Source: Vibrio ponticus
GTDB lineage: Bacteria; Pseudomonadota; Gammaproteobacteria; Enterobacterales; Vibrionaceae
Direction: 5' to 3'
Assembly: GCF_009938225.1 (NCBI RefSeq)
Contig: NZ_AP019657.1
Coordinates: 992,001-1,056,000 of the forward strand
Length of the DNA stretch: 64,000 bases
Of the stretch, positions 7,384 through 42,700 are shown piece after piece (the stretch's first letter is position 1; every line of letters starts with the position of its first letter). A model generated the notes under the pieces. That model saw only the letters and a list, made by a program, of their open reading frames with translations, was not told the origin of the DNA and did no database searches. The position numbers and the translations under genes were made by a program.

Positions 7384-7417
7384 AAAAGAAGTCCAACTAC
7401 TATTTTTAAGTGATGTA

Positions 7418-7509: not shown

Positions 7510-7524
7510 TGAAGGAATACTTCA
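7510..7524. promoter_or_regulatory. Operator-like palindrome before the rpiR-type gene
   Basis: TGAAG-GAATA-CTTCA, same dyad as at 7418. It abuts a TTGACT hexamer at 7526-7531 that could be a -35 box, which would give autorepression of the regulator. Confidence 0.6.
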
Positions 7525-7584
7525 TTTGACTACGGTGTTACGTTAGTATCTCTGCAAGACTAATTAGGAAAATGGAAAATACTC

Positions 7585-8454: not shown

Positions 8455-8477
8455 AATTTCGTACCTACCGTAAAACA

Positions 8478-8500
8478 GGGAAGCGCAATGCTTCCCTTTA
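8478..8500 (+). terminator. Terminator after the RpiR-type gene
   Basis: GGGAAGC (8478-8484) and GCTTCCC (8490-8496) form a 7-bp stem with a 5-base loop followed by TTTATC. The T tract is weak. Confidence 0.65.
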
Positions 8501-8591
8501 TCTTCATTACCAAAGCTTGTCTAAATCTCATTTATCTGCCTTTTTGATCATTACGCTTGTGATGTTGTTCAATTATTCATCAACTTCATGT

Positions 8592-8662
8592 TGAAGTAAA
8601 ACTCCATAAGATCTATTGTGAATGTAAGTTTACTTTTGAGTAAAAATTATGGAGTTTTACTT
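8592..8662. promoter_or_regulatory. Operator pair and long inverted repeat before nanE
   Basis: TGAAG-TAAAA-CTCCA at 8592-8606 matches the cluster dyad with one change, and a mirrored copy lies at 8650-8664. Together they make a perfect 16-bp inverted repeat (8594-8609 with 8647-8662) whose right arm contains the ribosome-binding site GGAG (8651-8654) of nanE. It can act as paired operators or, if transcription starts upstream, as an mRNA hairpin hiding the ribosome-binding site. An additional small dyad ACTTCA-TGT-TGAAGT lies at 8583-8597. Confidence 0.6.
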
Positions 8663-8663
8663 T

Positions 8664-9350: not shown

Positions 9351-9352
9351 TC

Positions 9353-10240: not shown

Positions 10241-10242
10241 GT

Positions 10243-10719
10243 ATGATTCTTGGTGATTTAAATGACAAAAATCTAAAGTACACTATTCCAAGTAATATTT
10301 GGAGCGCATTGAAATTCGTAAGAGATAATGACCTTAGTATTTTGGATGATGGTCGTTATGAGATTGATGGTGATAAAATTTATATCAATGTCATGACAGT
10401 AAAAACGGTTTGTAAAAACTCAAAAAACTTCGAAATTCATCGTGATTATGCAGATGTTCAAATTTTAATTCATGGTCAAGAATGTATGGAATTTGCATCA
10501 ATTACAGAACGTTGCGAGGTTATGTCTGATTACGATGGTAACAACGATTTTCAATCTGTTGTTCCTTTATCAAATATATCTACTCTAAATTTAAAACCAA
10601 ATATGTTTGCTGTTTTTTATCCTAATGAGCCTCATAAGCCGACTTGTAATATAGATGAGGAGAGAACGGTGAAAAAAGCGGTAATCAAAGTACACACTAG
10701 TTATTTACGGAAAAATTAA
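10243..10719 (+). CDS. nanQ: YhcH/YjgK/YiaL-family protein, probable sialic acid anomerase (NanQ)
   Basis: From the ATG at 10243 (ribosome-binding site GAGGT seven bases upstream) the product has 158 residues, the usual length of this cupin family. Visible family positions include FEIHRDYADVQILIHG with the conserved His and Asp, and FYPNEPHKPT with another His. E. coli YhcH, renamed NanQ, speeds anomer interconversion of sialic acid in the cytoplasm. An alternative start at 10177 overlaps nanK by 64 bases and has no good ribosome-binding site. Very AT-rich for the window. Confidence 0.78.
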   Translation: MILGDLNDKNLKYTIPSNIWSALKFVRDNDLSILDDGRYEIDGDKIYINVMTVKTVCKNSKNFEIHRDYADVQILIHGQECMEFASITERCEVMSDYDGNNDFQSVVPLSNISTLNLKPNMFAVFYPNEPHKPTCNIDEERTVKKAVIKVHTSYLRKN

Positions 10720-10735
10720 CTTAAGGGGCTTTATT

Positions 10736-12052: not shown

Positions 12053-12073
12053 AAATAGTTGAATCACAACCAT

Positions 12074-12099
12074 CAGGCTGTACACGAAAGTACAGCCTG
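12074..12099 (+). other. Intercistronic hairpin in the nan operon
   Basis: CAGGCTGTAC (12074-12083) and GTACAGCCTG (12090-12099) form a perfect 10-bp stem with an ACGAAA loop between the transporter and oxidoreductase genes. No T tract follows, so it more likely protects the upstream mRNA or trims expression than ends transcription. Confidence 0.6.
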
Positions 12100-12128
12100 A
12101 ACTCCAATATTTCAATTTTAGAAGGATA

Positions 12129-13241
12129 ATGAAAATGACTCGATACGGTGTGGTTGGTACTGGTTATTTTGGAGCAGAGCTTGCTCGCTTTATGCAGCGC
12201 ATAGAAGGCGCAGAGATTGTTGCTATTTATGATCCTGAAAATGCGGGACCGATTGCAGAAGAATTGAATTGTATCGCGACAGCTTGTTTAGAAGACCTAG
12301 TTACTCGCGATGATATCGATTGTGTTATTGTCGCTTCGCCAAATAATGCACATAAAGAACCGGTACTTGCTGCTGCGAGAAATGGCAAACACGTTTTTTG
12401 TGAAAAGCCAATAGCCCTAAATTACCAAGATTGCAGTGAAATGGTACAAGCCTGTAAAGATGCAGGTGTGAAGTTTATGGCGGGTCATGTGATGAACTTT
12501 TTCAATGGGGTTCGTCATGCTAAGCAATTGATTAAAGATGGTGTGATTGGTGAGGTGCTCTCTTGTCATACCAAGCGAAATGGTTGGGAAGACGAACAGC
12601 CAACTATTTCGTGGAAGAAAATGCGCAATATCTCAGGCGGGCACTTGTATCACCATATACACGAATTAGATTGTGTTCAGTTTTTGATGGGGGGAGCGCC
12701 AGAAAAAGTCACGATGACGGCAGGCAATCTTGCTCATAAAGGACCAGGTTTTGGCGATGAAGATGACATGTTGTTTTTAAATCTTGAATTTGCAGATGGA
12801 CGTTTTGCAACGCTAGAGTGGGGGGGCGCATTCCACTGGCCTGAACATTATGTTTTGATCCAAGGCTCAAAAGGTGCCATTAAGATCGACATGCAGGAAA
12901 CGGCAGGAACACTTCGTCTTAACGGAAAGAATGAGCATTTCCTCGTACACCAGAGTCAAGAAGAAGATGATGACCGTCGAGCTGGTAACATGAGTAGTGA
13001 GATGGATGGTGCGATTGCTTACGGTAAACCAGGTAAAAAAACACCAATGTGGCTGTCGTCTGTAATGAAGCTTGAGATGCAGTATTTACATGATTTATTG
13101 AATGGGATGAAGCCCACTGAAGAGTTTGTTGCTTTGATAACAGGTGAAGCTGCTACATCGGTGATCGCAACAGCCGATGCTGCAACCAAATCCCGCTTTG
13201 AAGATCGAAAAGTGCGTCTCTCAGAGGTATTAGGTCACTAA
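12129..13241 (+). CDS. nanY: Gfo/Idh/MocA oxidoreductase, NanY-type 2,7-anhydro-Neu5Ac hydratase
   Basis: The protein starts with a Rossmann motif GVVGTGYFGAELARF and carries the family motif FCEKPIAL, with the catalytic-lysine position, then GGHLYHHIHELDCVQFLMG with the histidines. It has about 370 residues, as E. coli NanY (YjhC, 372) and the Ruminococcus gnavus NanOx have. Those enzymes use bound NAD to turn 2,7-anhydro-Neu5Ac into Neu5Ac. A second ATG three residues in (12135) is also possible; the upstream GAAGGATAATG suits the first. It is the last gene of the nan operon before a strong terminator. Assignment beyond the large Gfo/Idh/MocA family depends on the neighbours (transporter, trans-sialidase-like enzyme), so the symbol is moderately sure. 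Confidence 0.72.
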   Translation: MKMTRYGVVGTGYFGAELARFMQRIEGAEIVAIYDPENAGPIAEELNCIATACLEDLVTRDDIDCVIVASPNNAHKEPVLAAARNGKHVFCEKPIALNYQDCSEMVQACKDAGVKFMAGHVMNFFNGVRHAKQLIKDGVIGEVLSCHTKRNGWEDEQPTISWKKMRNISGGHLYHHIHELDCVQFLMGGAPEKVTMTAGNLAHKGPGFGDEDDMLFLNLEFADGRFATLEWGGAFHWPEHYVLIQGSKGAIKIDMQETAGTLRLNGKNEHFLVHQSQEEDDDRRAGNMSSEMDGAIAYGKPGKKTPMWLSSVMKLEMQYLHDLLNGMKPTEEFVALITGEAATSVIATADAATKSRFEDRKVRLSEVLGH

Positions 13242-13253
13242 TTAAAGTATTTG

Positions 13254-13279
13254 AGGTCAGCATTGCTGACCTTTTTTTT
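13254..13279 (+). terminator. Terminator of the nan operon
   Basis: AGGTCAGC (13254-13261) and GCTGACCT (13265-13272) with an ATT loop, followed by eight T. It separates the operon from the sialidase gene, which must have its own promoter in 13280-13360. Confidence 0.9.
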
Positions 13280-13360
13280 GAAATATAGATTGCTGTCGTT
13301 TTATGCGAACGACTTTCTTTTGTCTGCCCTAATAATCAAATATCGATACTTGAGGTTAAA

Positions 13361-15433
13361 ATGAAAGCAAACGCAATACTTCCTGTCGTACTCGTTCTGT
13401 CAGCTATGATCCCAACGACTCAAGCTGATGAAGTAAGTAGTTATCTAGATCATAAATTTAGTCAGTTACAACAGGCTGAAGACGCCCAAAATCAGCGTAA
13501 CCAGTCAGTGCCGCTTTATCAGGCGGCAAGCGTAATAATTAACAATCCCTCTGACGCAATTGCATTACCTAGTAATGTCGTAGAGCAAGTAAAAACATTA
13601 GACTCAATGACATTAGTCGCCAAAATTAATCCGCAGATTGACGGTTTCCACTCTATTTTTGGTGCAAGTGATAGTCGTTCAGGCTACCCGAATAATCACT
13701 TTCATGTATATGTGTCTGATTTGAAGTTGGGCTTTGAGATCCGTCGCCAGAGAGGAGGTGATATCCACAAAGCGAGCAAAGTGGATATTAACTTGCTTAA
13801 TGGTACGGACAATATTGTCGCTTTTTCCGCTTCTCCACAAACAGGTTACAAGTTGTTTCTTAACGGTGAGAAGATCCTTGATGTCCCAACGCCCTCAAAC
13901 TATGGACTGATTTCGGATATCCCTGGAATTAATAACGCACAAATTGGCCGAACTATTCGTTATAATGCCAATAGTTATGACTATGTCGGTGATATTGATT
14001 TAATTGAGCTTTACAACGTAGCACTAGACGATGAAACCCTACGAAGTAAGACGTTTCTTGATGTTTCAGATCGGGCTCCCGTGCAGAGTTTTAAATTGTA
14101 TGACAAAGAAGAATGGAATACCGCTGCATTCCGGATTCCAGCGATGATTCGTACTGCACAAAACACCATCATTACTGCTGCTGATATCCGTTACGGTGAC
14201 AGTAATGATTCTCCTAATAATATTGACGTAGGGATCCGTCGGAGTTCCGATAATGGGCTTACTTGGAGTGAGCCAGAGGTGATATTGGCATTCGATGATT
14301 ACCCTAGTGTGCCATCGAGCCAGATTACAGATAGTGCGTCATACATAGATTCAGTGATTGTAGAAGGGCATGAAAATCGTATTTTCTTGTTTGCCGATGC
14401 GTTTAAAGGCGGGATTGGTCAAGCTAATTCTACTTCTGGCACGGGGTATCGCGTCATAGATGGTCAGCAATATCTTTCATTAACGAGCACGAATCAACCG
14501 GCAATACAGTACTACCTTGGTCATGACGATCGTGTCTATACCTTAGATGGAAATGCGACAAGTTATACTGTAGGCGATGGTTTTACATTGTTTGAAGATG
14601 GTATTGAGGTGAGTAATATTTTCTACAAACGTTCACCATTGGTGGTTGATTCTACTTCATTTATTGTAATGATTTATTCGGATGATGAGGGAGCAACTTG
14701 GAGTCAGCCGGAAATTGTCAACGACCAGATTAAAACGTCTGATATGAAGTTCTTAGGTGTTTCACCAGGTGGAGCTATTACGATTAAAAACGGTGTTAAT
14801 CAAGGTCGCATTTTGGTCCCAATTTATTACACTTCAACTCTCAACACGACCGAGTATGCTGCAGCGATGTACAGTGATGATAATGGAGTAAGCTGGAGGC
14901 TTGGCGAGTCACCGAATGATGGGCGTATCGGTGGGGCTGAAAAATTGCATGAAGCTCAGTTTGTTGAAATGCCTAACGGTCAGATCAAAATGTTTGCTCG
15001 CAGTGTGGGTAAAGCGGCGGTTGCAACAAGTCTCGATGGAGGTATCACTTGGCTTGATGATGTAGAGTACGACACTACTTTAGTGATGAGTAACACAACA
15101 GGATGTCAGTTATCCGTCATCAATTACTCAGGTTTTATTGATGGGCAACCAGCTGTGATCTTTAGTAACCCCGCAGCAACGAAACGTGCAAATGGCACTA
15201 TTCGGGTTGGGTTGATAAATGAGAATGGTTTTTATGATAATGGCGAGCCTCGCTACACTTTCACTTGGAAGTATGCTCGAATCATCATGCCGGATGAATT
15301 TGCTTACTCTAATTTAACCGAATTAGAAAATGGAAACATTGCCATCCTTTATGAGGATAGTAATACTCGCTACAAACTATTCCATCTTATATACAGTGAG
15401 TTTACTTTAGATTCACTGAAGTTTTTACCATAA
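13361..15433 (+). CDS. Secreted sialidase of the intramolecular trans-sialidase type (CBM40-GH33)
   Basis: The 690-residue protein has a signal peptide (residues 1-22, ending QAD). A concanavalin-like CBM40 domain (about 60-230) precedes the GH33 propeller. The propeller shows the first arginine in FRIP (R258), Asp boxes SSDNGLTW (295), SDDEGATW (440), SDDNGVSW (505) and SLDGGITW (557), and an arginine in FARSVGK (R547). Between the first and second Asp boxes there is an inserted segment of about 90 residues (GYRVIDGQQYL onward). That insert and the end block GCQLSVINYSG are typical of pneumococcal NanB, NanC and leech NanL rather than ordinary hydrolytic sialidases. NanB and NanL release 2,7-anhydro-Neu5Ac. 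The adjacent NanX/NanY-like genes support this product. A Neu5Ac2en product (NanC type) cannot be ruled out. Confidence 0.83.
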   Translation: MKANAILPVVLVLSAMIPTTQADEVSSYLDHKFSQLQQAEDAQNQRNQSVPLYQAASVIINNPSDAIALPSNVVEQVKTLDSMTLVAKINPQIDGFHSIFGASDSRSGYPNNHFHVYVSDLKLGFEIRRQRGGDIHKASKVDINLLNGTDNIVAFSASPQTGYKLFLNGEKILDVPTPSNYGLISDIPGINNAQIGRTIRYNANSYDYVGDIDLIELYNVALDDETLRSKTFLDVSDRAPVQSFKLYDKEEWNTAAFRIPAMIRTAQNTIITAADIRYGDSNDSPNNIDVGIRRSSDNGLTWSEPEVILAFDDYPSVPSSQITDSASYIDSVIVEGHENRIFLFADAFKGGIGQANSTSGTGYRVIDGQQYLSLTSTNQPAIQYYLGHDDRVYTLDGNATSYTVGDGFTLFEDGIEVSNIFYKRSPLVVDSTSFIVMIYSDDEGATWSQPEIVNDQIKTSDMKFLGVSPGGAITIKNGVNQGRILVPIYYTSTLNTTEYAAAMYSDDNGVSWRLGESPNDGRIGGAEKLHEAQFVEMPNGQIKMFARSVGKAAVATSLDGGITWLDDVEYDTTLVMSNTTGCQLSVINYSGFIDGQPAVIFSNPAATKRANGTIRVGLINENGFYDNGEPRYTFTWKYARIIMPDEFAYSNLTELENGNIAILYEDSNTRYKLFHLIYSEFTLDSLKFLP

Positions 15434-23783: not shown

Positions 23784-23823
23784 GAGAGCTACCTTTTGTC
23801 AGTGTTGGGTAGCTCTCTTTTTT
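23784..23823 (+). terminator. Terminator of the permease-ligase operon
   Basis: GAGAGCTACC (23784-23793) and GGTAGCTCTC (23808-23817) form a 10-bp stem followed by six T. The core stem GAGCTACC/GGTAGCTC recurs at 29647-29680, on the far side of the next operon. Confidence 0.9.
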
Positions 23824-24084: not shown

Positions 24085-24735
24085 ATGTCAGTTGCAGAAC
24101 TAAAAGAGCACCGAACTGTTCGTGAACTTCACGATATTTTTAAAAAGGAATACGATAAAAAAGTTAATTCCGAAAAACGTATTTCTGAATGTAATCACAG
24201 CTTTCAGAACCTTCAGCATAGTAGCCAGTCTGCGCTGAACTATGCGGGAAAGTTCAAATCTCCTTCATTGAATGACCAACTCAGCTCGATCAAAAATGCA
24301 GGACAAATTCCGCAAGTCCTAGACGACCCGAAATTAATTGAATTAAAACAATCGCTGCACTCACTTTTTGAGCGCTGCGATAACATTAATCCTAAAGCGT
24401 TTACCATTTCTAGTATGGATAAAATCTCAGCATATCCTAAGAGCGTACTATTAAACGACGAGCAGTTTAATCAGCTGTCTCAAGATGAACAACGAGTGGC
24501 AAAACAGTTCGAAGAAGTTACTAAACCAATTAAGGATGCTCATCTACAAAGGGCGGTACTTGGTCAGCAAATCGAGACCGAAAGACAAAGAGTATTGAAG
24601 AAGCGTCGCTTTATGCGCAATAGCATTATCGCAGTTATTCTGTGTGCGGGCGGCTTCGCTTTTGCTCTCAAGGAAAATGATCCTCAGCTCTTTCAGCACT
24701 ACGTAAATCTTGTCAAAAACATGATCAACTTATAA
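24085..24735 (+). CDS. Unknown protein with one C-terminal membrane helix (operon gene 1)
   Basis: The 216-residue protein is mostly charged and probably helical, with heptad-like stretches. A single hydrophobic segment at about residues 178-195 (SIIAVILCAGGFAFAL) preceded by KKRRFMR would put the bulk in the cytoplasm and a 20-residue tail outside, like a tail-anchored protein. I recognise no family. It is the first gene of a six-gene run, 16 bases before the ATPase gene. In a secretion-like complex it could anchor the ATPase to the membrane, as EccB/EccE or EssB-type partners do; that is conjecture from position and topology. Confidence 0.65.
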   Translation: MSVAELKEHRTVRELHDIFKKEYDKKVNSEKRISECNHSFQNLQHSSQSALNYAGKFKSPSLNDQLSSIKNAGQIPQVLDDPKLIELKQSLHSLFERCDNINPKAFTISSMDKISAYPKSVLLNDEQFNQLSQDEQRVAKQFEEVTKPIKDAHLQRAVLGQQIETERQRVLKKRRFMRNSIIAVILCAGGFAFALKENDPQLFQHYVNLVKNMINL

Positions 24736-24751
24736 ACACGTGTAACTCGAT

Positions 24752-27619
24752 ATGAATAAATTAATCCAAAATCTGACCAGCAGTAAAATTAAATATACTT
24801 TTGATCAAGCTGAGCAATATCCAAACATCGAAAGTAGTGTTGCTGAACATGCCAAAGTTCAAAATGAAATCCTAAAATGTGCGGAACGTGTGCTGGCACA
24901 AGAAGTTGCATCGCAAAAGCAGCAGCTTGAAGATGCAAAGCAAACTATTCAACAAGCGATGTCGTGGCTATCGCAAGTCGATGCACCTGAACTGAAAGCC
25001 CAAAACTGGAATGACTTCCCTTTTAATACTCAGTATATCCCTAATGAGCTGGTGATCGGTTATCAGGAGCTAGTGATTGAAGACGAGAGCTTTAAAATTC
25101 CGGTCACGGTTCCTTTTATGTCTGGCGATGATACTTATTACTATCCAGCTGGAGCAGATAGTTTAGAGTGGACTCAAGATGCATTGCATACAATTATCAT
25201 GCGCTTGAGTGTTATGTTGCCATATGGTGCGCAGTTCTGCTTACTAGATCCGGCAAAGATGGGTGAAAACTTTCCATACATTAAGCAGTTACCATTTAAG
25301 CGTCCGTTGAGTAACGATATTTCTCGTACTTTAGAGGAAGTATTGGATGACATTAAACGCATTAAGCAAAACTACCTTGATAACCGTACTCGTCGTTTGA
25401 TCGATGTTGATCCTGAAATTCGTGGTAGTGAGAAATTTGAATTCGTTGTGGCGTCAAACTTCCCTAAAGGTTATGACCGCCGTTCAATTGAACTTTTGGC
25501 GCAAATAGCTAATACAGGTTCTGTTGCTGGTAAATACGTGCTTATTCAACATAACCAGGACATTGAGTTACCTAATGGTGCATCAATGGATTGGTTTGAG
25601 TCTTTAAAAAACATTCGAGCTAGCGAAAATCATACTAAAGCGATCCCTGATCTTGATATGTATATGATTGCCTCAGAAGCTATCTGTGACGAGACGATAA
25701 ATACCATTTTAGATTGCGTGGCGAAAGCGAAACCAAAAGAGAATAAGCTTGAGTTTACTGACGTGACGGACACCAACCCAGAGAAATGGTGGAAAGGCGA
25801 TACGGAACACGAGATTCGCGTAGCTGTTGGTGGTACTGGCGCTAAAAAAGATGACCTTGAATTATGGTTTGGTGAAAGTAATGGTCGCCAAATCTGTGCC
25901 CACGGTATGTTGGGTGCGATGACCGGTGCAGGTAAATCGAACCTATATCATGCGTTTATCATGGGTCTTGCTTGTCGTTATAGCCCAGATGAGCTACAGC
26001 TTTATTTGATTGATGGCAAACAAGGTGTGGAGTTTAAGTGCTATCCGACGTTACCACATGCCAAGGTTGTATCACTCAATACTTCTCCTGACTTATCGCG
26101 CAGTGTGCTTGGCGAGTTAGTAGAAGAAATGGTTAGACGCAATGAAATGTTTAAGCGTGAAGGCTTCGAAAATTTAAGAGATTATCGTAAAGAGACTAAG
26201 AAGCCTTTACCACGAATTCTTCTTGTTGTGGATGAATATCAAACTCTGTTTGAAGATGACCGTGACGGTTTAGGTTCGGATTTGATGGAAAAGCTGGCGA
26301 CGCAAGGTCGAAGTGCGGGTATCCATATGTTAGTTGGCTCGCAGCGCTTTGGTGCGTCTGGCATGCAGAATCAGCAGAGCATCTTCGGTAACATTCACTT
26401 GCGTATTGGTATGCAGATGAGCGAGGCTGATGTGACGGCACTGCAAGAGTTTGGTCCAAATGGCAAACGACTACTGCGTGCTTGTAAAGAAGCTGGTCAA
26501 GTTGTTATCAATGACTCTGCGGCTAACGATGATAAAAACCGTGCTGGTCGAGTGACGTACTTGTCAGATAAGTTACGTTTAGATCTGATTAAGCAACTTG
26601 CAGAAAAATGGCAACAACAAGCGCTGGCTAACCACCATCACTCAATTTTACTTGATGGCTCTGGTCAGCCAAATCTGAGTGAAAACCCTCAGCTAGAAAA
26701 ACTATTTGCTACCTATACATCGCAACCAACTCAGCAAGAGTGGATTGACTTCGCCAACATGCCTGAGCACCAACAGGGTTTGGGACAAAAAGAGTGGTAT
26801 CCGGTTGAGAAGCCAGCTAACTTCTGGCTTGGTCGCGAGATGAATATTCATGGTCAAGCGAACATCGTTATCCGCCGACGTACTAACGAACACTTGCTAC
26901 TTGTTGGTGAATCAGCTGAAGCTCGTTCGGGAATGTTAAGCTATATGCTGGCTCAATTGCCAATCAATCATGCGGCTGGTGAATATCAGGTATATTTGCT
27001 TGAACGTGCGATTAAAGGTTCTCCATGGCATGGTATTATGAGCCGAGCTCTGGAAATGTGCGACAGTTCCGCAACTCATTATCGCGAAAATGTTGCTGAA
27101 TTTGCGAGTGATATGGAAAACATCAAAGCAGAGTTCGAGCGTCGAAAATCAATGGACGAAGAACAAATGCTGGCTCAATCGACCATCTATGTTGTGGTTA
27201 ATGAAGCGCAACGAGCGACAGAACTACAGCAACAAGCTGGACGCTATGGCGTTAAAGAGCACGGTGACTTAGGTGCTATTATTTCAGAGCTGCTAGAGCA
27301 AGGTGCTGAATACGGCATCCACATCGTAATGAGTTTTGACAACGTACGTGCGGTAACCAAGGTATTTGACCGCCGTGATGTTGATTTATTCAAACACAAA
27401 GTAGTATTGCAAATGTCAGAAGATGACAGCTTCTGTGTAATTAAGTCTCGTCATGCTGCTTTACTTCAACAAACGACTCGTGTTCCTGTCTATGCTTTAT
27501 ACGCAAATGCATCACAGAACTACCCAGTTAAATTTAAGCCGTATTGCTACCGCGATGTAGAAGATCATGTTAGTGAGCTAAATCAGCTAAATAACTATCT
27601 ACAATCATGGAGTAAATAA
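24752..27619 (+). CDS. FtsK/SpoIIIE-family ATPase with three ATPase-like modules, EccC-like (operon gene 2)
   Basis: The 955-residue protein has an N-terminal coiled region (1-85), then a module lacking a Walker A lysine but with LLDPAKMGENF and FEFVVASNFP segments of FtsK-like folds (about 130-330). The central module is intact: Walker A GAMTGAGKSN (388-397), Walker B ILLVVDEYQ (D494, E495), and GIHMLVGSQR. A third module is degenerate: GESAEARSG in place of Walker A (719-727) and VVVNEAQ (N817, E818) in place of Walker B. Three modules with one intact is the layout of EccC/YukB ATPases of type VII secretion, though there the first is the active one. No membrane helix is seen in this protein. 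A DNA-pumping FtsK/HerA role is the alternative. Confidence 0.8.
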   Translation: MNKLIQNLTSSKIKYTFDQAEQYPNIESSVAEHAKVQNEILKCAERVLAQEVASQKQQLEDAKQTIQQAMSWLSQVDAPELKAQNWNDFPFNTQYIPNELVIGYQELVIEDESFKIPVTVPFMSGDDTYYYPAGADSLEWTQDALHTIIMRLSVMLPYGAQFCLLDPAKMGENFPYIKQLPFKRPLSNDISRTLEEVLDDIKRIKQNYLDNRTRRLIDVDPEIRGSEKFEFVVASNFPKGYDRRSIELLAQIANTGSVAGKYVLIQHNQDIELPNGASMDWFESLKNIRASENHTKAIPDLDMYMIASEAICDETINTILDCVAKAKPKENKLEFTDVTDTNPEKWWKGDTEHEIRVAVGGTGAKKDDLELWFGESNGRQICAHGMLGAMTGAGKSNLYHAFIMGLACRYSPDELQLYLIDGKQGVEFKCYPTLPHAKVVSLNTSPDLSRSVLGELVEEMVRRNEMFKREGFENLRDYRKETKKPLPRILLVVDEYQTLFEDDRDGLGSDLMEKLATQGRSAGIHMLVGSQRFGASGMQNQQSIFGNIHLRIGMQMSEADVTALQEFGPNGKRLLRACKEAGQVVINDSAANDDKNRAGRVTYLSDKLRLDLIKQLAEKWQQQALANHHHSILLDGSGQPNLSENPQLEKLFATYTSQPTQQEWIDFANMPEHQQGLGQKEWYPVEKPANFWLGREMNIHGQANIVIRRRTNEHLLLVGESAEARSGMLSYMLAQLPINHAAGEYQVYLLERAIKGSPWHGIMSRALEMCDSSATHYRENVAEFASDMENIKAEFERRKSMDEEQMLAQSTIYVVVNEAQRATELQQQAGRYGVKEHGDLGAIISELLEQGAEYGIHIVMSFDNVRAVTKVFDRRDVDLFKHKVVLQMSEDDSFCVIKSRHAALLQQTTRVPVYALYANASQNYPVKFKPYCYRDVEDHVSELNQLNNYLQSWSK

Positions 27620-27620
27620 C

Positions 27621-27890
27621 GTGTCATTAAACGATGTAGAGCAAAACCTACAACAGTTTGTGACGCAATTGGACAGCTTCTCTGAAGCTGTCCGTCAGTG
27701 CCAGCGAGAGCTACTCGACCCAACAGATGAGGTGACAGCGATGTTGCCTCATTCTAAGGCTAATACATTTCGAACGCTTTCGACTGACCTAGATACTGTT
27801 GCATCCAAACTCACGCATAGCCTAGCTCCTGGCTTGCAATCAGGTCTCGAATACCGCCTGCACGTATTGAGGACTTATTTGCATGAATAG
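27621..27890 (+). CDS. Small helical protein (operon gene 3)
   Basis: A GTG at 27621, with GGAG eight bases before it, starts an 89-residue acidic, helical product without signal peptide or cysteine pair beyond one Cys. It begins one base after the ATPase stop, and its end overlaps the next gene by eight bases. No family recognised. Size and helical content resemble WXG100 or ESX-type substrates and adaptor proteins, but there is no WXG. Confidence 0.65.
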   Translation: MSLNDVEQNLQQFVTQLDSFSEAVRQCQRELLDPTDEVTAMLPHSKANTFRTLSTDLDTVASKLTHSLAPGLQSGLEYRLHVLRTYLHE

Positions 27891-28155
27891 TCATCAGTTA
27901 ACCGCGCTGGAAACTTTAGAGCAACGTTCTCAGCGTAGTTTAAAAAATCTAGAACAGGCGCATCATGAGCTGCATGTTGCTTGGGTTGTGTTAAAAGAGA
28001 GCTATGAGGGACAAGGCGCTGAAGAGGCCGATATGCAATTTCAGGTCTTAGCTGGTCAATTCTCTGAGTATCAGCATTTGCTGGAACAACTCATAATGGA
28101 GTGTGCTCAAGAGATTGCTGAGCTGAAAGAAAGGGGAGAAGCACATGCAACCTAG
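27883..28155 (+). CDS. WXG100-like small helical protein (operon gene 4)
   Basis: The 90-residue protein is predicted to be two long helices broken near residues 38-46 (KESYEGQGAEEAD), a turn that sits where WXG100 proteins have W-x-G; a tryptophan lies eight residues earlier. There is no signal peptide. The frame overlaps the genes on both sides (8 and 11 bases), so translation is coupled. A WXG100-like role as secreted partner or chaperone of the ATPase complex is an inference from size, fold pattern and the EccC-like neighbour. Confidence 0.62.
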   Translation: MNSHQLTALETLEQRSQRSLKNLEQAHHELHVAWVVLKESYEGQGAEEADMQFQVLAGQFSEYQHLLEQLIMECAQEIAELKERGEAHAT

Positions 28156-29167
28156 GTGGTTAATCGCTCAGCTTGAAGAGTTTTCTTTCTTGTCACAATC
28201 TCAAAGTGTACTCAGTGATGAAGTGCGAAAAGTATTAACACTGACGGAAAGTCATGGTGTGGAGCATACTAATCGACTTGATAGTGACGTTCATCGTTTT
28301 GCGGTTCTTTATGCAGAACTAATGGACGAGCAAAGAATACGCTGGGATCGCCATGAGAGAAACTATCAGCAAACGGCACGTACTCTAGATGAGCGTGAAA
28401 AAGAGTTAACTCAAGCGCAACTGGATCTCGAAAGCACCAAAAAGTCTCATTCATTTTGGCAAAATCAGCTGGCTCAAGCTCAAAACTGGAAATCTCGCGC
28501 TCATAAGCGAGTGACATCGGCTGAATATGATCTCGACCAAGCAGAGAGAAAAACTCGAGCAGCTGAAAGCGATTACCGTTCAGCAAAGTCAAATTATGAT
28601 TATGCTCGTTCGCAGATGATTCAAGTTTATGTTGGTAAAGATAGCCGTGGCAATGCGCAATATGAGTACCGTCGCAATCCAGCGACTGCAGAACTTCATG
28701 CGTTGAATGCGGCTTCTAGTCGATTGGATTCAGCAAGATCGCAAGAACAAGTGGCAAGGCAAGAGCTCAGCGCCGCGCGTGAAGAGTACTCTCGTGCTTC
28801 TCACCAAGTCGAGGGCAGTATGTCAGCGGTTGCGGATATGGAAGTAGCCAAGAAGCACTCTTATTCAGCCCTTTCTAGTGCGGAAGATGCCAAAACTAAT
28901 ACACTAAACGCTCGATACAGTTTGGATGAAGAGCGTCGAGTATTGGAGCAGATGGACGACATTCTAAACAGTATTGAAAGTTGTGTTTTCAGCCAACAAA
29001 ACTGTCAACGTGAACTTCATCAGCATAACTCTGTCGCTAATACAGCTTTACGTAATAATGAACAGATCCAAGAGGATCTGGTTTATGAAATTTATAAAGT
29101 TCGTTACGCGCTCGAGAATAAAGCCAATTTGCTTGCGGCATTTGATGCCCCTGTATTTCTAGGATAA
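28145..29167 (+). CDS. Coiled-coil protein (operon gene 5)
   Basis: The 340-residue product is rich in E, Q, R, A and S, with long heptad runs at about residues 70-145 and 175-260 split by a short beta-like insert (IQVYVGKDSRGNAQYEYRR). No membrane segment or signal. It overlaps the preceding gene by 11 bases and is followed by the last gene two bases on. Such a coiled-coil hairpin could be an elongated secretion substrate (LXG-like proteins are similar in their N-terminal helices) or a scaffold. No family recognised. Confidence 0.65.
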   Translation: MQPRWLIAQLEEFSFLSQSQSVLSDEVRKVLTLTESHGVEHTNRLDSDVHRFAVLYAELMDEQRIRWDRHERNYQQTARTLDEREKELTQAQLDLESTKKSHSFWQNQLAQAQNWKSRAHKRVTSAEYDLDQAERKTRAAESDYRSAKSNYDYARSQMIQVYVGKDSRGNAQYEYRRNPATAELHALNAASSRLDSARSQEQVARQELSAAREEYSRASHQVEGSMSAVADMEVAKKHSYSALSSAEDAKTNTLNARYSLDEERRVLEQMDDILNSIESCVFSQQNCQRELHQHNSVANTALRNNEQIQEDLVYEIYKVRYALENKANLLAAFDAPVFLG

Positions 29168-29169
29168 CT

Positions 29170-29619
29170 ATGCAACCAACATTTGATACAGCTTTCTACC
29201 AGCGCAATCATATGGATTTGGAAGACGAGTTAATGAAGCTTGCTCTTGCGGTACAGAGCTTCAAAGAACAGTCTCAAACCCTATCCGCAATTTGGTCGGA
29301 TGATGCTGGACGTAGAATCAGACAAATTCATATGCTCCCTTTGGTAGAGCAATATGGATTATTTGAAGGCACCGCAAAACAATATCTTCAATCAAGTGAA
29401 GAGCGCTTGAGAAGCTTTTATGAGATGAAACGACTGATTAGTGAATATGCTGGTCTACATTCAAGCTTGGAAGAGAGAGAAGATGACGTTTTGCGCGTTA
29501 ATGATGAATATCACAGGGTGACGGCAATTAGTGAACGACAACGAGATAAGGGGGTTGAATTTGCTTATAAAAGTGAGCAAATGAACCGTCAAGCTCAGAG
29601 TTATGTCAATCCACTTTAA
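29170..29619 (+). CDS. Helical protein with W-x-D turn (operon gene 6)
   Basis: The 149-residue protein is helical throughout. Near residue 43 it reads AIWSDDAGRRI between two helices, reminiscent of the W-x-G turn of WXG100 proteins. No signal peptide or membrane segment. It is the last gene of the operon, followed by a terminator at 29647. No family recognised. Confidence 0.62.
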   Translation: MQPTFDTAFYQRNHMDLEDELMKLALAVQSFKEQSQTLSAIWSDDAGRRIRQIHMLPLVEQYGLFEGTAKQYLQSSEERLRSFYEMKRLISEYAGLHSSLEEREDDVLRVNDEYHRVTAISERQRDKGVEFAYKSEQMNRQAQSYVNPL

Positions 29620-29646: not shown

Positions 29647-29685
29647 GAGCTACCGGACTATTCTTCGTGTTTGGTAGCTCTTTTT
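29647..29685 (+). terminator. Terminator of the FtsK/WXG-like operon
   Basis: GAGCTACC (29647-29654) and GGTAGCTC (29673-29680) followed by five T. The stem equals the core of the terminator at 23784-23817 although the loops differ. Confidence 0.85.
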
Positions 29686-33785: not shown

Positions 33786-36700
33786 ATGGCAATACTGAAC
33801 AAGTTAGTATCAGGGCAACCGACAGTAATTGATGAGCTGGGAAATGTACGGATACTAAACGGGGATGATACCCCCCAGGCGGGTGATTTGCTGCTCGCTC
33901 AAGTTATTACCAATGAACCAAATAATCCCCCCGAAATCACAGCGCAACTGTTTGGTCAAACTGGTAACGCTACAGATTTAACTGCTGACATAGCAGAGAT
34001 TTTTGAAGCGCTAGAACAAGGCGATGATCCGACACAGTTGAATGACAGTTTTGCGACCGCGGCCGGTACAGTGGATGGTTCAAGCTTAATCAATTCCACT
34101 TCGGTAGTGAGAATCGGTGATGAAACTATCGCGGATACAGCGTTCACAACGCAAGATTTAGAAGAGTTAGGACTTTCAAAGACTCAAAGCTTAACGCTAT
34201 TGCAACAGTATAACCTACCAAACAATGATGGTGCTGATGCCGTCGAGTTTCAAAATAGCCAACCAATTGGTGATGACGTAACTGTAACAACGAATGAAGA
34301 TACATCTGTAACAGGAGCCCTGCAAGCGACAGATGCAAATGTAGATGATGTTCTCGAGTTTACCCAATCCAGTCCCCCAAAAAATGGCAGCGTTATAGTC
34401 AATTCAGATGGAACATGGACCTATACGCCAAACGAAAATTATGATGGTTTGGACAGTTTCGAAGTCATTGTGAGTGATGGTAAAGGTGGCTCAGATACAC
34501 TGGTTGTTAATGTTAACGTTACGCCAATTCCTGAAATAAGCATTACTGGCGGTGGGGATGTCAACGAAGGCTCTACTGCGAACTATACGATAAACTTCGA
34601 TAAATCTTCTGACCAAACTACGACTCTTAAGTTAACGAAAAACTTCACTAGTGCTGAAAGCGAGGATCTTGAGCTACTGACGGTGAAATCTTCTACTGGG
34701 GAGGTTTTAACAGTCAATCCTGATGGCACCATCCAAGTCCCTTCTGGTGTGACGTCTCTTGAAGTTACCATTGAAACTAACCAAGACAACGTTTACGAGG
34801 GTGACGAGTCATTCCAATTAGTTGTTACTCCAGTTACAGGTTTAGTCGGCGGCGGTTCAAGTCTGACGACGATTAAAGACGATGGTACTGGCTCGGCTGA
34901 TGAAAATAATGTAACCGATGACGATCGTCCAGAAGTCACGCAGGTCTCCAGCCTCACGGTGGAAGAAGGTCAGTTAGCGACGTTTGATGTCACTTTGAGT
35001 AATGCCAGTGAACTTCCAACAAAGATTGAAATGAGTCTTGCGGATGGCACTGCGGAGAGCGGTGATTACACCAACACCCAGGTGGTGGTGACTTATCTTG
35101 ATGGTGATGATGAGAAATCACACACTCTGACGGTCAGCAACGGCCAGTTCAGTTTTGACCTTCCTGCGGGGAACTCCGGCTTTAAAGTGGCGGTGCAGAC
35201 CACATCTGATGCTAATGCACCTATTTACGAAGGGGATGAAACCTTCACCCTGACCGCGTCGACAGAGACACAATCTACACCAACCTCAGGCCAAGCGACG
35301 ATCCAAGATGGTGGTGAAGGTGGTGCACAGAGTGATGACGACCGTCCGGAAGTCACACAGGTCACCAGCCTCACGGTGGAAGAAGGTCAGTCAGCGACGT
35401 TTGATGTCACGTTGAGTAATGCCAGTGAGCTTCCAACAAAGATTGAGATGAGTCTTGCAGATGGCACCGCGGAGAGCGGTGACTACACAAACACCCAGGT
35501 GGTGGTGACTTATCTTGATGGTGATGATGAGAAATCACAAACTTTGACGGTCAGCAACGGCCAGTTCAGTTTTGAGCTTCCTGCTGGGAACTCCGGCTTT
35601 AAAGTGGCGGTGCAGACCACATCTGATGCTGATGCACCTATTTACGAAGGGGATGAAAACTTCATCCTGACCGCGTCGACAGAGACACAATCTACACCAA
35701 CCTCAGGCCAAGCGACGATCCAAGATGGTGGCAATGGTGGTGCGCAGAGTGATGACGATCGTCCAGAAGTCACACAGGTTTCCAGCCTCACGGTGGAAGA
35801 AGGTCAGTTAGCGACGTTTGATGTCACGTTGAGTAATGTTAGCGATCTGCCGACAAAGATTGAAATGAGTCTTGCGGATGGCACTGCGGATGGTAGTGAC
35901 TATACCGGTACCCAGGTGGTGGTGACTTATCTTGATGGTGATGATGAGAAATCACAAACTCTGATGGTCAGCAACGGCCAGTTCAGTTTTGACCTTCCTG
36001 CGGGGAACTCCGGCTTTAAAGTGGCGGTGCAGACCACATCTGATGCTGATGCACCTATTTACGAAGGGGATGAAACCTTCATCCTGACCGCGTCGACAGA
36101 GACACAATCTACACCAACCTCAGGTCAAGCGACGATCCAAGATGGTGGCAATGGTGGTGCGCAGAGTGATGACGATCGTCCAGAAGTCACACAGGTTTCC
36201 AGCCTCACGGTGGAAGAAGGTCAGTCAGCGACGTTTGATGTCACGTTGAGTAATGCCAGTGAGCTTCCAACAAAGATTGAGATGAGTCTTGCAGATGGCA
36301 CCACGGAGAGCGGTGACTACACAAACACCCAGGTGGTGGTGACTTATCTTGATGGTGATGATGAGAAATCACAAACTTTGACGGTCAGCAACGGCCAGTT
36401 CAGTTTTGAGCTTCCTGCTGGGAACTCCGGCTTTAAAGTGGCGGTGCAGACCACATCTGATGCTGATGCACCTATTTACGAAGGGGATGAAAACTTCATC
36501 CTGACCGCGTCGACAGAGACACAATCTACACCAACCTCAGGCCAAGCGACGATCCAAGATGGTGGCAATGGTGGTGCGCAGAGTGATGATGATCGTCCAG
36601 AAGTCACACAGGTTTCCAGCCTAACGGTGGAAGAAGGTCAGTTAGCGACGTTTGATGTCACGTTGAGTAATGCCAGTGAGCTTCCAACAAAGATTGAGAT

Positions 36701-39700
36701 GAGTCTTGCAGATGGCACCGCGGAGAGCGGTGACTACACAAACACCCAGGTGGTGGTGACTTATCTTGATGGTGATGATGAGAAATCACAAACTTTGACG
36801 GTCAGCAACGGCCAGTTCAGTTTTGAGCTTCCTGCTGGGAACTCCGGCTTTAAAGTGGCGGTGCAGACCACATCTGATGCTGATGCACCTATTTACGAAG
36901 GGGATGAAAACTTCATCCTGACCGCGTCGACAGAGACACAATCTACACCAACCTCAGGCCAAGCGACGATCCAAGATGGTGGTGAAGGTGGTGAAGGTGG
37001 TGCACAGAGTGATGACGACCGTCCGGAAGTCACACAGGTCTCCAGCCTAACGGTGGAAGAAGGTCAGTTAGCGACGTTTGATGTCACGTTGAGCAATGCC
37101 AGTGAGCTTCCAACACAGATTGAGATGAGTCTTGCAGATGGCACCGCGGAGAGCGGTGACTACACCAACACCCAGGTGGTGGTGACTTATCTTGATGGTG
37201 ATGATGAAAAATCACAAACTCTGACGGTCAGCAACGGCCAGTTTAGTTTTGACCTGCCTGCGGGGAACACCGGCTTTAAAGTGGCGGTGCAGACCACATC
37301 TGATGCTGATGCACCTATTTACGAAGGGGATGAAACCTTCACCCTGACCGCGTCGACAGAGACACAATCTACACCAACCTCAGGGCAAGCGACGATCCAA
37401 GATGGTGGTGAAGGTGGTGCGCAGAGTGATGACGATCGTCCAGAAGTCACACAGGTTTCCAGCCTAACGGTGGAAGAAGGTCAGTTAGCGACGTTTGATG
37501 TCACGTTGAGCAATGCCAGTGAGCTTCCAACAAAGATTGAGATGAGTCTTGCGGATGGCACTGCGAATGGTAGTGACTATACCGGTACCACCGTTGTTGT
37601 GACTTTTATAAATAAAGGGCAGTCAGAGTCGAAAGAAGTTGAGGTCAGCAACGGCCAGTTTAGTTTTGACCTGCCGGCGGGGAACACGGGCTTTAAAGTG
37701 GCGGTGCAGACCACATCTGATGCGAACGCTCCTATTTACGAAGGGGATGAAACCTTCACCCTAGCTGTCGCGACAGAGACACAAGCAACACCGAAGTTGG
37801 GTCAAGCAACTATTCAAGATCAAGAAGACCGCCCACCAGAGTCAAAAGACTTTGAAACTGAGGTTAGTCACAGCGGGAAGACACAGGTCATTTTTGATAC
37901 TGCCAAAACCCCAATCACGGATACGTCGGACGACCGCATCTCCGATTTAGAGGATGATGCCGCTAACATCGACCTCAAGATTGTAATTAGTGAATTACCG
38001 GATAACGGCACACTTTTTTACAAGGACGGTGATAACTATATAGAAATCACAGCTGATGACTTATATCACTCAGATAAAAGTGTTAATGAGTATAAACAGT
38101 TCGATCAAGATTCAATTTACTATGAACCTGATGCTGATTCCGAAGGATTTATTCTCGGCATAAAAGACGCTAATTTGGGCACTGAAGAGAAAGCGACCTC
38201 TGACTATTTCCTTAATTGGGGAGCTGAAGGTACCAATGCTAAAGAGCGAATTTTAACTCTTGGTGGCGATGAAATCACTATTACCGCGAGCAACGGCAAA
38301 TTAGTGCAATACTTAGGTGATCCGAATGCCAACCATATCGGTCATGGTATTGGAGTAAAAAATGACGGTGGTATTCAAAAAGACGAAACCATCACGATTG
38401 ATTTCAAGACTCGTCCGGCAGACACAGTAACATTGGGCTTGGATGGTTTAGGTGGCTGGTTCGAGCAAGGAGTGGGAGAGCCTAACGAAACATTTGTCGT
38501 TATCTCTGTCAATTATACCGATGAGAATGGCATTACAGGCACCGCCCAATATACCTATCAAAAGCATTCATCGGGAGATGTTGACCTTTTCCATGAAATT
38601 ACCATTTCAGCAAACGCTGAAGACTTGTCAAATGGCACATTAGTAGCTGTTGGAGCCCCGTTACCGGAAGGTGCATTGATAAGTAGCGTTGAGCTCGGTA
38701 CACAGGGGAATGGTAATTGGGAACTGCGTTATCTTGAAACGGAACTGTCGGACAGTTTTGATTATCATGCCGTGGACAGTGACGGTAACGTTAGTGACCA
38801 ATCGACAGTGACTATTGATGAAGGGAATGCCCCTCCTAAAGCTAATAATGACCCTGTAGGTGAATTTATTGTTTCGCTTGGCGAATACAACCAAGGTAGC
38901 TGGCACCATGGTGGATTAACTGATGATCAAGGCTTAAACGCTGATTATAACGGTGATGATAAAGGTTGGAATACCAATGGCGATAAGTTGGGCGTCAACG
39001 GAGACGTCAATGGCGGACCGGGCAACCAAATTCAATATAATCGTGAAGCCGGTAAATCAGAGCAAGTAACGATTAACTTCAAAGAACCAATTACAGAATT
39101 CAAATTTTCAGTGTCAAACCTTTATCAAAATGAGGGGGGCACGGGTAATCATGAGCAAGGTAAGTGGGTCGCTTATTTTGACGGCGTAGCCGTTGCCAGC
39201 GGAATGTTTACCGCTAATGATGACAACAGTAACAATAAAGGCGAGTACACCTTTGATAGCGACGCTTTAGGTGGTGTCGCCTTTGATAGTATCGTTTTCG
39301 AGGCGACCGATTTTGTTATTCAACCGGATCCAAATAAAGGCGACGATTCTTCTGATTACTTTTTAACAGGATTTGAAGGTACAGGCGGTGGTGCTTACGT
39401 CGTTAATCAGGGCAGCGAGCTTAAAATTCCACTGAGTGAACTGCTGAGTAACGATACAGATATAGATGGCGACGCCATTCGCATTACTGCTATTACTAAA
39501 AGTGGTGAACAAGCCGACGTGTACGTTCAAGGTGACTATGTTTATTTCACCTCATCAAAACCAGGAGCAACCACTTTTACATATCAAATTACGGATGACA
39601 AAGGTGGTTTTGATGAAGCCGAGGTAAGCGTCATCGTGAACCCAGGTCCTGCATCTGCATCAATTGACAGCATAACCATGCACGAGTCTGAAGTTGCCGA

Positions 39701-42700
39701 GGGAGATAACCTTGTTTACCTTGTCAAGCTAGATCAAGGCGTACTGGCTACAGGTGAGGATGCTCAATACAAAATTACATTTGGCAAGGCGGACGACGCT
39801 GCAACTGATAGCGATGTTAACCTCAGTAATGCGCAATTTACCCATGGCGTTAAGTTTGAAAATGGTCAGTTGATTGTGCCGCAGGGTGTCAGCTCTTTCT
39901 CAATTATTATCTCAACCGTTGGTGATAGTAAATTTGAGCATCTTGAGGATTATACAGTCTCGATCACCTCACCAGATGGCAGTATAGTTTCCGCTTCTGG
40001 CAACATCATTAATGTGGTTGCGGATGCCCATGGTTTTGAAGACCAACCGATTGACCTTGGTCTTACCAATGTCGATTTATCTCTTATTAGCAGTCTGACG
40101 CTTTCTAATGTTCCTGATGGCGGAAACATTTTGGTGAATGGTGAACCGGTTGATCTGAATGACTCGTCAGCGACCATCGATATCGATGACGATACCGCAA
40201 TCGAGCTTTTACCACCTAAAGACAGTCATGGCGACTTTACTCTCAATGTTCAGCCTAATAATTCCGAGGGTGAGCCTTTAGGTAGCGCTCAAAAGGTTGA
40301 TATAAAAGTTGAAGCCGTCGCGGATAAGCCAATTGTTCAATTAGCAGACGAGAAAATCATCGCTTCGCAAAACTTCGAAAGCATCGAACTTAATGGATCA
40401 AAATGGACCGGAAAGGTAACGGGTGATGATTTAACTGATGCGGACTCAGGTGTTTGGGGGACGAATAACAACCCTGGCACGGTTGAAGTAGGTCTTGAAG
40501 GGACTTATCGACCAGGTAAAAGCGATAACCAGATTATGGAGTTGGAAGGCAATCGTGGCGATAGCTCCTTGTTTGTCGAGTTTACCGGAGTTGCCGGAGC
40601 GTTTTATGAGATTTCCTTTGATGCCGCCGCAAGAAGACTAGGCAGCTCGCCACTGACTGTATTTTTAGAAGACGCCGGTGGTGTTCGCACGCCAGTGTTT
40701 GTTTACGAGCAATCTAAAGATTGGTCAAGCATTCAGCAGCATTTCCAAATTCCAACTGATGGCGAATACAAACTGGTATTTGAGTCGGATCATGGTAACG
40801 CCAGTGACACGGATACTTTTGGTGTTTTACTCGACAATATCCAATTAGCTAAGACCGATAATTATGGCTTCGAAGGCGAGTTTATTAACCTTAGCGATAT
40901 CAATATTTCTGCATCGGATGTCATTGGCATGGCAGGGCACGAATATGGCTCTGAAACGCTGACGATTAAGATGGAAGGCATTCCTGCTGGTGCCGAGTTA
41001 AGAATTAATAGCGGTAATGAAATTATTCCCATAACAGTGACTGACGGTGTAGTTGATTTAACCAAATACCAAGATAAACTCGCGGATTTACAGATCATGA
41101 TCCCTGACGCGAGTGACAGCAGTATTCCATTAACGGTTACAGCTACGTCGACTGAGGAAAGTAATGATGATGCATCAACTTCCGATCCTGTGGTAATTAA
41201 TGTGACGGTGGTTAAAAACAACCCACCAGAGTCAAAAGACTTCGACACTGAGGTTAGTCACAGCGGTAAGACACAAGTTGTTTTTGATACCGCCAAAACC
41301 CCAATTACTGACACGTCTGACGACCGAATCTCCGATTTAGAGGATGATGCCGCTAACATCGACCTCAAGATTGTAATTAGTGAATTACCGGATCACGGTA
41401 CGCTTTATTATAAGGACGGTGATAATTATATAGAAATCACTGCTGATGACTTATATCACCCAGATAAGAGTTCGGACCAGTATAAGCAGTTTGACCAAGA
41501 CTCAATTCATTACGAACCGGATGCAGATTCAGAAGGGTTTATTTTAGGTATTAATAGTGATGCCGAATCAAAACCTCTTGGTCAGGACAACAAAGGCTCT
41601 AGCACAACTGATTTCTATAATTGGGGCGAAAAAGTTAGCGATACAGTTCGAGAGTTAAAACTGAACGATACTGATGTGGTAACGATTACTTCGACTTCCA
41701 CAAAAAATAAAGATGCCACGCTTACTCAATATAATGGTGAAGCAAACAAGAATCATGTTGGCTATGGTATCGGTGTTGGTGGTGATTACGGCATTAATAA
41801 AAATGAAACACTAGCAATTGAATTTAGTAGTCGTCCAGCGGATAGCATCACCCTAGGTCTTGATGGATTGGGAGGCTATTTTGAAGAAGGGCTAGGCACA
41901 AATAAAGAGACCTCAGTTGTTATTACAATCAGTTATGTTGATCAAAATGGTATTACAGGCTCAGCCCAATACACTTATCAAAAGCATTCATCGGGAGATG
42001 TTGATCTTTTCCATGAAATTACCATCCCACCAAATCCGGAAAACATGCCAAATGGCTCGTTAATCGCTGTTGGAGATTCATTACCAGAAGGTGCTTTAGT
42101 TGACGGTGTTGAGCTGAGCACACAAGGCAAGGGTAATTGGGAACTGCGTTATCTTGAAACGGAACTGTCGGACAGTTTTGATTATCATGCAGTTGATAGT
42201 GATGGTAATGTAAGTAACCAATCGACGGTAACTATTGATGAAGCGAATGCTCCGCCTGTCGCTACAGATGATCCTGTTGGTACGTTTACTGTTTTGCTAG
42301 GTGGATACAACCAAGGTAGCTGGCAACATGATGGCTTAACTGATAAGAACGGCTTAAGTGCGGGTTATCGAGGTAATGATAAAACGCTGAATACGAGCGG
42401 TAATAAGTTGGGCGTTGATGGCGATGTCAATGGCGGACCGGGCAACCAAATTCAATATAATCGTGAAGACGGTAAATCAGAGCAGGTAACGATTAACTTC
42501 AAAGAACCAATTACAGAATTCAAATTTTCAGTGTCAAACCTTTATAAAAATGAGGGTGGAACGACTAATCATGAACAGGGTAAGTGGGTCGCTTATTTTA
42601 AGGGTGTAGCCGTCGCCAGTGGGATGTTTACCGCTAACGATGGTAACAACAAAGGTGAGTACGAATTTAACTCAAATGATTTTGGTGATATTGCTTTTGA

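Follow-up and report, generated by a model that had tools for sequence, protein, structure and literature searches.

A conserved six-gene operon of Vibrio ponticus with an EccC/EssC-branch ATPase: a candidate compact type VII-like export apparatus

The six-gene operon and its conservation

Six adjacent genes, g1 to g6, were analyzed at positions 24085-29619 of a 64,000-nucleotide stretch of Vibrio ponticus DNA (contig NZ_AP019657.1, positions 992,001 to 1,056,000 of the forward strand; hereafter the window), from a genome of 4.8 Mb. The explanation towards which we lean is that they encode a compact type VII-like apparatus in a Gram-negative bacterium, for which we infer a function in protein export. 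A type VII-like nature had been suggested in a preliminary description of this DNA, and the suggestion is strengthened by an ATPase of the EccC/EssC branch, by small proteins that appear related to WXG100, and by the co-occurrence of the genes across phyla. The six genes are as follows.

g1, 24085-24735, + strand: 216 amino acids, helical; C-terminal membrane-helix-like segment at residues 177-195; proposed membrane anchor of the ATPase
g2, 24752-27619, + strand: 955 amino acids, EccC/EssC-branch ATPase by family, PDB sequence, and AlphaFold fold matches
g3, 27621-27890, + strand: 89 amino acids, GTG start; helical, putative WXG100 relative
g4, 27883-28155, + strand: 90 amino acids, helical, putatively WXG100-like; Y-E-G-Q-G-A turn
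g5, 28145-29167, + strand: 340 amino acids, predicted single antiparallel coiled-coil hairpin
g6, 29170-29619, + strand: 149 amino acids; invariant W-x-D, weak WXG100-like profile

The open reading frames (ORFs) are separated by gaps of 16, 1, and 2 bases and joined by overlaps of 8 and 11 bases, exactly as laid out in the preliminary description. Between the window and two relatives (loci L034 and L013, the latter from Photobacterium galatheae S2753), the nonsynonymous divergence (dN) of the six genes was 0.05-0.22 and the synonymous divergence (dS), computable in 7 of the 12 comparisons, was 0.49-3.3; the low dN relative to dS therefore indicates purifying selection. Simple promoter and terminator scans returned site numbers no higher than those in shuffled sequences.

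A search for the same six genes in other genomes, as proposed in the preliminary description, found them together and in the same order in all 13 family loci examined, across phyla. Besides the window, these comprise ten more loci from Vibrionaceae, one from another Pseudomonadota genome (G299), and one on a plasmid of Deinococcus actinosclerus. BLAST detected g1 in the window clade only; in G299 and Deinococcus, it missed g3 and g6 and found g4 and g5 weakly (E 0.005-0.8), and in these two the genes were assigned by position, size, and motif. These results support the view that the six genes form one conserved unit, beyond what chance would give.

The closest named relatives of the ATPase, among the matches listed, were those of Enterovibrio norvegicus (89% identical) and Photobacterium galatheae (87%). 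A total of 322 homologues was found, of which 120 were listed, and the listed names include lineages of Acidobacteria, Chloroflexi, Verrucomicrobia, and Deinococcus. The distribution is patchy. At E up to 1e-30 the ATPase was present in 10 of 227 genus-level genomes, including that of the window and one (G500) with a remote type set among VWA, PP2C, and kinase genes; in a phylum sample, it was present in 4 of 398 genomes at 1e-40.

The component proteins

Sequence and fold comparisons support the placement of g2 in the EccC/EssC branch of the FtsK-like ATPases. The FtsK/SpoIIIE domain of Pfam was matched, and the best NCBIfam models were those of the type VII secretion system (T7SS) proteins EccCa (8e-37), EssC (5e-28), and EccCb (3e-26), with scores far under the equivalog cut-offs of these models. 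The closest PDB sequence was EccC (4nh0), and ranks 1-8 of a Foldseek search with the AlphaFold model of g2 were all EccC or EssC chains, with a poor overall superposition (root-mean-square deviation of 14 for 4nh0). Family models of FtsK, TraB, and CedB gave weak scores, and a domain tree placed the g2 family in a clade separate from FtsK, without resolving its exact sister. Two matches weigh against a type VII reading, namely that of PHROG 1358 (FtsK-like) to residues 270-557 (3e-34) and that of PADLOC SspH to residues 383-539 (7e-30); both cover the FtsK-type region only and are slightly weaker than the match of EccCa.

The ATPase consists of the following parts.

Residues 2-71: N-terminal helices
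Residues about 76-325: module 1, degenerate
Residues about 326-640: module 2, intact, with G-x-G-K-S at 392-396 and D494-E495 (Walker B)
Residues about 641-955: module 3, degenerate

The G-x-G-K-S motif and the Walker B D-E pair of module 2 were kept in 25 of 25 aligned homologues, and G-x-G-K-S/T was found in none of the 25 in modules 1 and 3, which bears out the earlier account of one intact and two degenerate modules.

The register of these modules was derived by aligning the 25-row g2 profile with five EccC proteins of Streptomyces plasmids, of which four are annotated as EccCa and the fifth is the longest ORF of an unannotated record; this template profile is shallow, as it comprises five related sequences with module borders set by hand. 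EccC has been described as consisting of a degenerate DUF, an active D1, and degenerate D2 and D3 modules (PMC11154593). The module 2 profile scored 176.7 against EccC D1, 117.9 against D2, and 74.0 against D3, and the module 3 profile scored 60.7 against D2, 52.8 against D1, and 51.3 against D3; for module 1 no score was confident, the highest being 23.5 with D2. The best full-length alignment placed g2 residues 53-896 on EccC 107-1001, corresponding to stalk-DUF-D1-D2, with a score of 226, whereas the D1-D2-D3 register scored 142. In the global alignment, g2 residue 1 met EccC residue 61, near the end of the EccC membrane region. On the profile scores and the stalk-DUF-D1-D2 alignment, the degenerate-active-degenerate order of g2 most plausibly corresponds to DUF-D1-D2, D3 being absent. 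The likely equivalence of module 2 with D1 is well supported and that of module 3 with D2 moderately so, and the assignment of module 1 to DUF rests on order.

No clear membrane helix was found in g2 (best 19-residue hydropathy 1.39, with thresholds of 1.6 for ATPases and 1.4 for g1). A C-terminal hydrophobic segment was present in all 13 g1 proteins, with a mean hydropathy of 1.43-2.71 over 19 residues, which was under 1.6 in five of them. In 3 of the 120 listed ATPase homologues (P0044, P0049 from Roseimicrobium, and P0077), a hydrophobic segment (1.71-2.74) lies in an N-terminal extension of about 130-150 residues ahead of the ATPase, which recreates the topology of EccC. Because a hydrophobic segment is fused to the ATPase in these proteins, g1 and g2 are suggested to act as one unit, and g1 is proposed to be a separate membrane anchor of the ATPase.

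Among the small proteins, the clearest family match was obtained for g4. WXG100 was the sole Pfam family for the g4 protein of the window (E 0.0038, 17.9 bits against a cut-off of 27.3), and a second family library also matched WXG100 (5.5e-4, below the curated cut-off). At E up to 0.05, WXG100 was matched by 7 of the 13 g4 members (best 7.6e-5), and each of five other families by one to three. When the g4 profile was compared with PDB sequences, 6 of the 18 chains listed were of WXG100 type, three of them so named, and the others were unrelated helical proteins. The top match was EsxA (positions 20-87 on residues 20-87, E 0.01), and four of the six WXG100-type chains were aligned within two residues of register. 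Residues L37, Y41, G43, and A46 were invariant in the 13 g4 proteins, and the Y-x-G, judged from the alignments, is a version of the W-x-G turn.

The g3 proteins of Vibrionaceae have no turn motif, and g3 of the window retains a C-terminal R-x-Y-L pattern; the g3 protein of Deinococcus reads W-Q-D and matches WXG100 at 2.8e-4, below cut-off. When a profile of 13 g3 proteins was searched against the 489 ORFs of four remote ATPase loci, ranks 1-3 were the WXG-like genes of L039 (2.8e-4), L018 (3.5e-4), and L017 (0.018, below the HMMER inclusion threshold). Only that of L039 exceeds the Pfam cut-off for WXG100 (29.2 against 27.3). The profiles of g1, g4, g5, and g6 gave no match among these 489 ORFs. 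The g6 protein of the window matched no Pfam family; its W42 and D44 were invariant in 12 of 12 proteins.

The g3, g4, and g6 profiles were also scored against a set of five WXG sequences, consisting of the L039 protein and four proteins from Streptomyces T7SS loci (one annotated as WXG100 and three unannotated). The scores were 31.1, 21.8, and 22.1, respectively, compared with maxima of 14.6, 14.9, and 17.1 for 60 column shuffles of each profile and 15.3 for 40 helical windows of g1 and g5. With the four Streptomyces sequences alone, the scores were 21.8, 17.0, and 18.3. At the level of sequence, these results support g3 as a diverged WXG100 relative that appears to have lost its W-x-G/D turn and g4 as WXG100-like, and make a WXG100-like nature possible for g6. 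Concerning the small helical partners, the W-x-D of g6 reported in the preliminary description stands, but g3 of the window has no W-x-G/D turn and the turn of g4 is Y-x-G. A PF06013 search of the window's own genome gave no match at E up to 0.001.

The g5 protein was predicted to be a single antiparallel hairpin with helices at residues 3-156 and 181-334 and a beta-hairpin tip at 158-177 (11 sequences; mean predicted local distance difference test score of 91, predicted template modelling score of 0.55). Each helix comprises about 154 residues, and at a helix rise of 0.15 nm per residue the modelled rod would be roughly 23 nm long. A Foldseek search with the model returned generic coiled coils only, and the model was all rod, with no nuclease or cargo domain seen.

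Proposed mechanism, known systems, and alternatives

In the proposed mechanism, g1 would fix a cytosolic ring or hexamer of g2 to the inner membrane, with a separate protein taking the part that the N-terminal helices play within EccC itself. Module 2, as the counterpart of D1, would be the motor, and modules 1 and 3, as those of DUF and D2, may be structural or regulatory. An elongated pre-export complex would arise when g3, g4, and g6 bind the g5 rod, on the model of EsaD with its partners EsxB, EsxC, and EsxD; the WXG-like hairpins may coat or cap the rod and thereby mark g5 for the motor. ATP turnover in module 2 would then allow the ring to move the rod complex into or across the inner membrane. 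The third module of EccC carries the signal-peptide site of complex 4n1a; with D3 absent in g2, substrate recognition would therefore have to differ. Delivery of toxic cargo is plausible as an older use of such machines, because next to each of two remote ATPase relatives lies a helical protein whose end is a nuclease or resembles one.

In the T7SSb of Staphylococcus aureus, EsxB, EsxC, and EsxD were reported to bind the transport domain of EsaD, giving an elongated shaft (Yang et al. 2023, PMC10653861). EsaD carries a nuclease, whereas g5 shows none, and the likeness is to the EsaD complex as described. The T7SS subtypes a-j have been named in Actinomycetota and Bacillota, with ATPases described as membrane-bound and, in T7SSc-j, with four C-terminal NTPase domains (Garrett, Higginson, Palmer 2024, PMC11217815). 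WXG100 proteins were likewise reported almost only from Actinomycetota and Bacillota, with a few in Chloroflexi (Poulsen et al. 2014, PMC3935865). The operon resembles these subtypes, as far as they are described in the sources cited, in having an EccC/EssC-branch ATPase and putative WXG100-family proteins in one cluster, and extra WXG100-related proteins beside helical substrates. It differs in its three ATPase modules, in the lack of a clear membrane helix in the ATPase, in the separate tail-anchored g1, and in its Gram-negative host. The T7SSb components EssB/YukC and YukD/EsaB had no match in the window's own genome, with a positive Bacillus subtilis control; the T7SSa components EccB and EccD had no match there either, in a search in which the EccB control matched nowhere and the EccD control matched below cut-off only.

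The nearest likeness in print is the EssC-like module of extended Type III-A CoCoNuT loci, for which Bell et al. (2024, PMC11090510) described an EssC-like ATPase with only its central module active, adjoined by two WXG100 proteins and one coiled-coil protein. As described, it has in common with the window an ATPase of three modules of which only the central one is intact, with an N-terminal coiled coil and without a membrane helix, next to two small proteins of WXG100 type (putatively so in the window) and one coiled-coil protein. Its own features are a coiled coil that ends in a restriction-type D-ExK nuclease, a DNA-mimic-like protein, and flanking VWA genes. The window has no nuclease end or VWA gene, and has instead the tail anchor and the third, W-x-D protein. 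Bell et al. (2024) label the modules D1-D2-D3, with only D2 predicted to be active (PMC11090510), so that the intact module read here as EccC D1 is called a D2 homologue in their paper.

That an operon of WXG100 type with an FtsK-like ATPase can occur by itself is also known in print, since Bell et al. (2024, PMC11090510) cite Anantharaman et al. (2012, PMC4104200) for this. The word "undescribed" in the preliminary description was accordingly too strong, given the related ATPase/WXG100/coiled-coil operon of Bell et al. What is new, as far as the literature was searched, is the constant six-gene arrangement shared by Vibrionaceae, a second Pseudomonadota lineage, and Deinococcus, together with the separate tail anchor and the fusions, the W-x-D protein as a third small partner, the reading of the modules as DUF-D1-D2, and a pair of genomes with and without the operon.

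Among the alternatives, the one that survives best is an intracellular conflict (defence) module, in which phage or stress would prompt the ATPase to remodel or load the WXG-like and coiled-coil proteins, without export; we consider it unlikely. Such a role would agree with the defence setting (CoCoNuT and TerY-P loci) in which Bell et al. (2024, PMC11090510) met related ATPases, and with the remote relative in G500 (L039), whose neighbours are VWA, PP2C, and kinase genes and the gene of a coiled-coil protein that ends in a nuclease-like part. The match of PADLOC SspH to the intact module (7e-30), the lack of a clear membrane helix in the ATPase itself, and the patchy distribution (10/227 genomes) point the same way. 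However, the conserved membrane segment of g1 and the ATPase fusions would put the machine on the membrane. Genes for a nuclease, a sensor, or signalling are absent from the cassette, and those window neighbours that were tested encode metabolic, stress, regulatory, or transport proteins. Moreover, in the account of Bell et al. (PMC11090510) secretion is inferred from the WXG100 partners.

Less probable still is a membrane-tethered envelope or stress scaffold, in which the rod and hairpins would be assembled at the inner membrane by the ATPase and not released. The rod is confidently predicted and shows no cargo domain, and a GDPD-type lipoprotein-like protein (482-492 amino acids) and a membrane protein of 791-799 amino acids with four hydrophobic segments are encoded after g6 in all seven Vibrio-type loci (L023, L024, L026, L035, L036, L037, and L038), which would then represent an envelope-maintenance version. 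The pair of L035 was typed as GDPD (2e-16) and as a weak TelA match (0.0019). These genes, however, do not adjoin the operon in the window, L034, L013, or L014, and the GDPD gene had no match in the window's own genome in a search without positive control. In the described T7SS, furthermore, an EccC-type motor with WXG100 partners makes up an export system (PMC11217815).

A DNA translocase, or a conjugation or segregation ATPase with accessory proteins, was already disfavoured and is improbable: the FtsK/SpoIIIE domain and the top VIA-align Z of the central module, with FtsK motor domains (24.9), would suit it, but T7SS ATPases come first by sequence and Foldseek with weak scores for FtsK, TraB, and CedB models, the partners appear WXG100-related, the tree sets the family apart from FtsK, and the phage or DNA-pumping reading of the preliminary description finds little support among 50,697 phage records, of which 173 match part of g2 and none matches over 80% of it.

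Beyond the type VII-like export apparatus that we favour, a more specific reading is offered tentatively and is rather less likely to hold. The operon might represent a distinct diderm T7SS subtype, with an EccC cut to DUF-D1-D2, a split anchor, and three WXG-like proteins exported on a rod of about 150 residues. If this is true, the rod could reach across the periplasm, and the printed designation of the active module as D2 would need revision to D1. The six-gene Vibrionaceae version would offer a minimal set of parts that can be tested in bacteria in culture, and a Gram-negative version raises the question of how a type VII-like motor copes with the outer membrane. The absence of the third module and the separation of the anchor can be regarded as natural experiments on the requirements of EccC, and five gene families without a Pfam assignment above cut-off gain hypotheses and tests.

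The empty site and neighbouring loci

The genome of G488, a near relative, carries both flanking genes (95% and 92% identical) with no operon between them; the flank alignments meet at window positions 23823 and 29667. The flanking genes typed in the window encode an AMP-binding enzyme, a universal stress protein, and a TRAP transporter. An imperfect direct repeat of 28 nt flanks the operon.

Left copy, 23793-23820, + strand: part of a stem-loop followed by T's (by eye), after the upstream AMP-binding-enzyme gene
Right copy, 29658-29685, + strand: just after g6; 79% identical to the left copy

The stem-loop of the left copy was not listed by the terminator scan, which took loops of 3-8 only. 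The empty site in G488 (L051) retains the left copy, and the repeats provide a possible path for precise loss by recombination. The operon occupies the corresponding position in G539 (L034), which is less closely related, so that loss from G488 is no less likely than an insertion.

Several remote ATPase loci contain other gene sets. In L018 (Helicobacter sp. NHP19-012 plasmid, NZ_AP024820.1; 5440-9842), one run of genes includes a WXG100-like gene (below cut-off), a protein with a C-terminal colicin-DNase/WHH nuclease, and a SUKH-1 immunity-like gene, all three ahead of the ATPase, and a 77-amino-acid protein. The ATPase is EccC-branch-like and 31% identical to g2 over a third. This run looks like a type VII-like toxin-immunity cassette in a Gram-negative bacterium, and, since an ATPase relative is paired here with a nuclease-end protein and a SUKH-1 gene, it suggests that some branches of the ATPase family may carry antibacterial cargo; no such cargo was recognized in the window operon.

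In L039 (G500; 3869-14498), the remote ATPase is surrounded by VWA, PP2C phosphatase, and kinase genes; the locus also encodes a WXG100 protein that passes the Pfam cut-off and a coiled-coil protein whose end is nuclease-like. The latter, of 443 amino acids, has a coiled-coil-like front and a C-terminus that resembles, by eye and without a Pfam match, the nuclease of Bell et al. The locus fits the extended CoCoNuT/TerY-P loci as described by Bell et al. (2024, PMC11090510). In L016 (Rhodococcus pseudokoreensis plasmid; 6796-15013), genes for Hsp70, DnaJ/TPR, and GrpE lead directly up to the remote ATPase, which is followed by genes for a 203-amino-acid helical protein with a hydrophobic C-terminus, an 86-amino-acid protein, and a 272-amino-acid protein with a seemingly non-helical C-terminal part. 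An Hsp70-like gene was also found near the operon in L024.

Elsewhere in the window, one ORF of 4233 codons fills positions 33786-46487; it contains many near-identical repeats, its C-terminal part resembles calcium-binding RTX repeats, and, read by eye, it is probably a giant surface adhesin. A CrtC/lipocalin-like gene (47986-49233) lies after this ORF.

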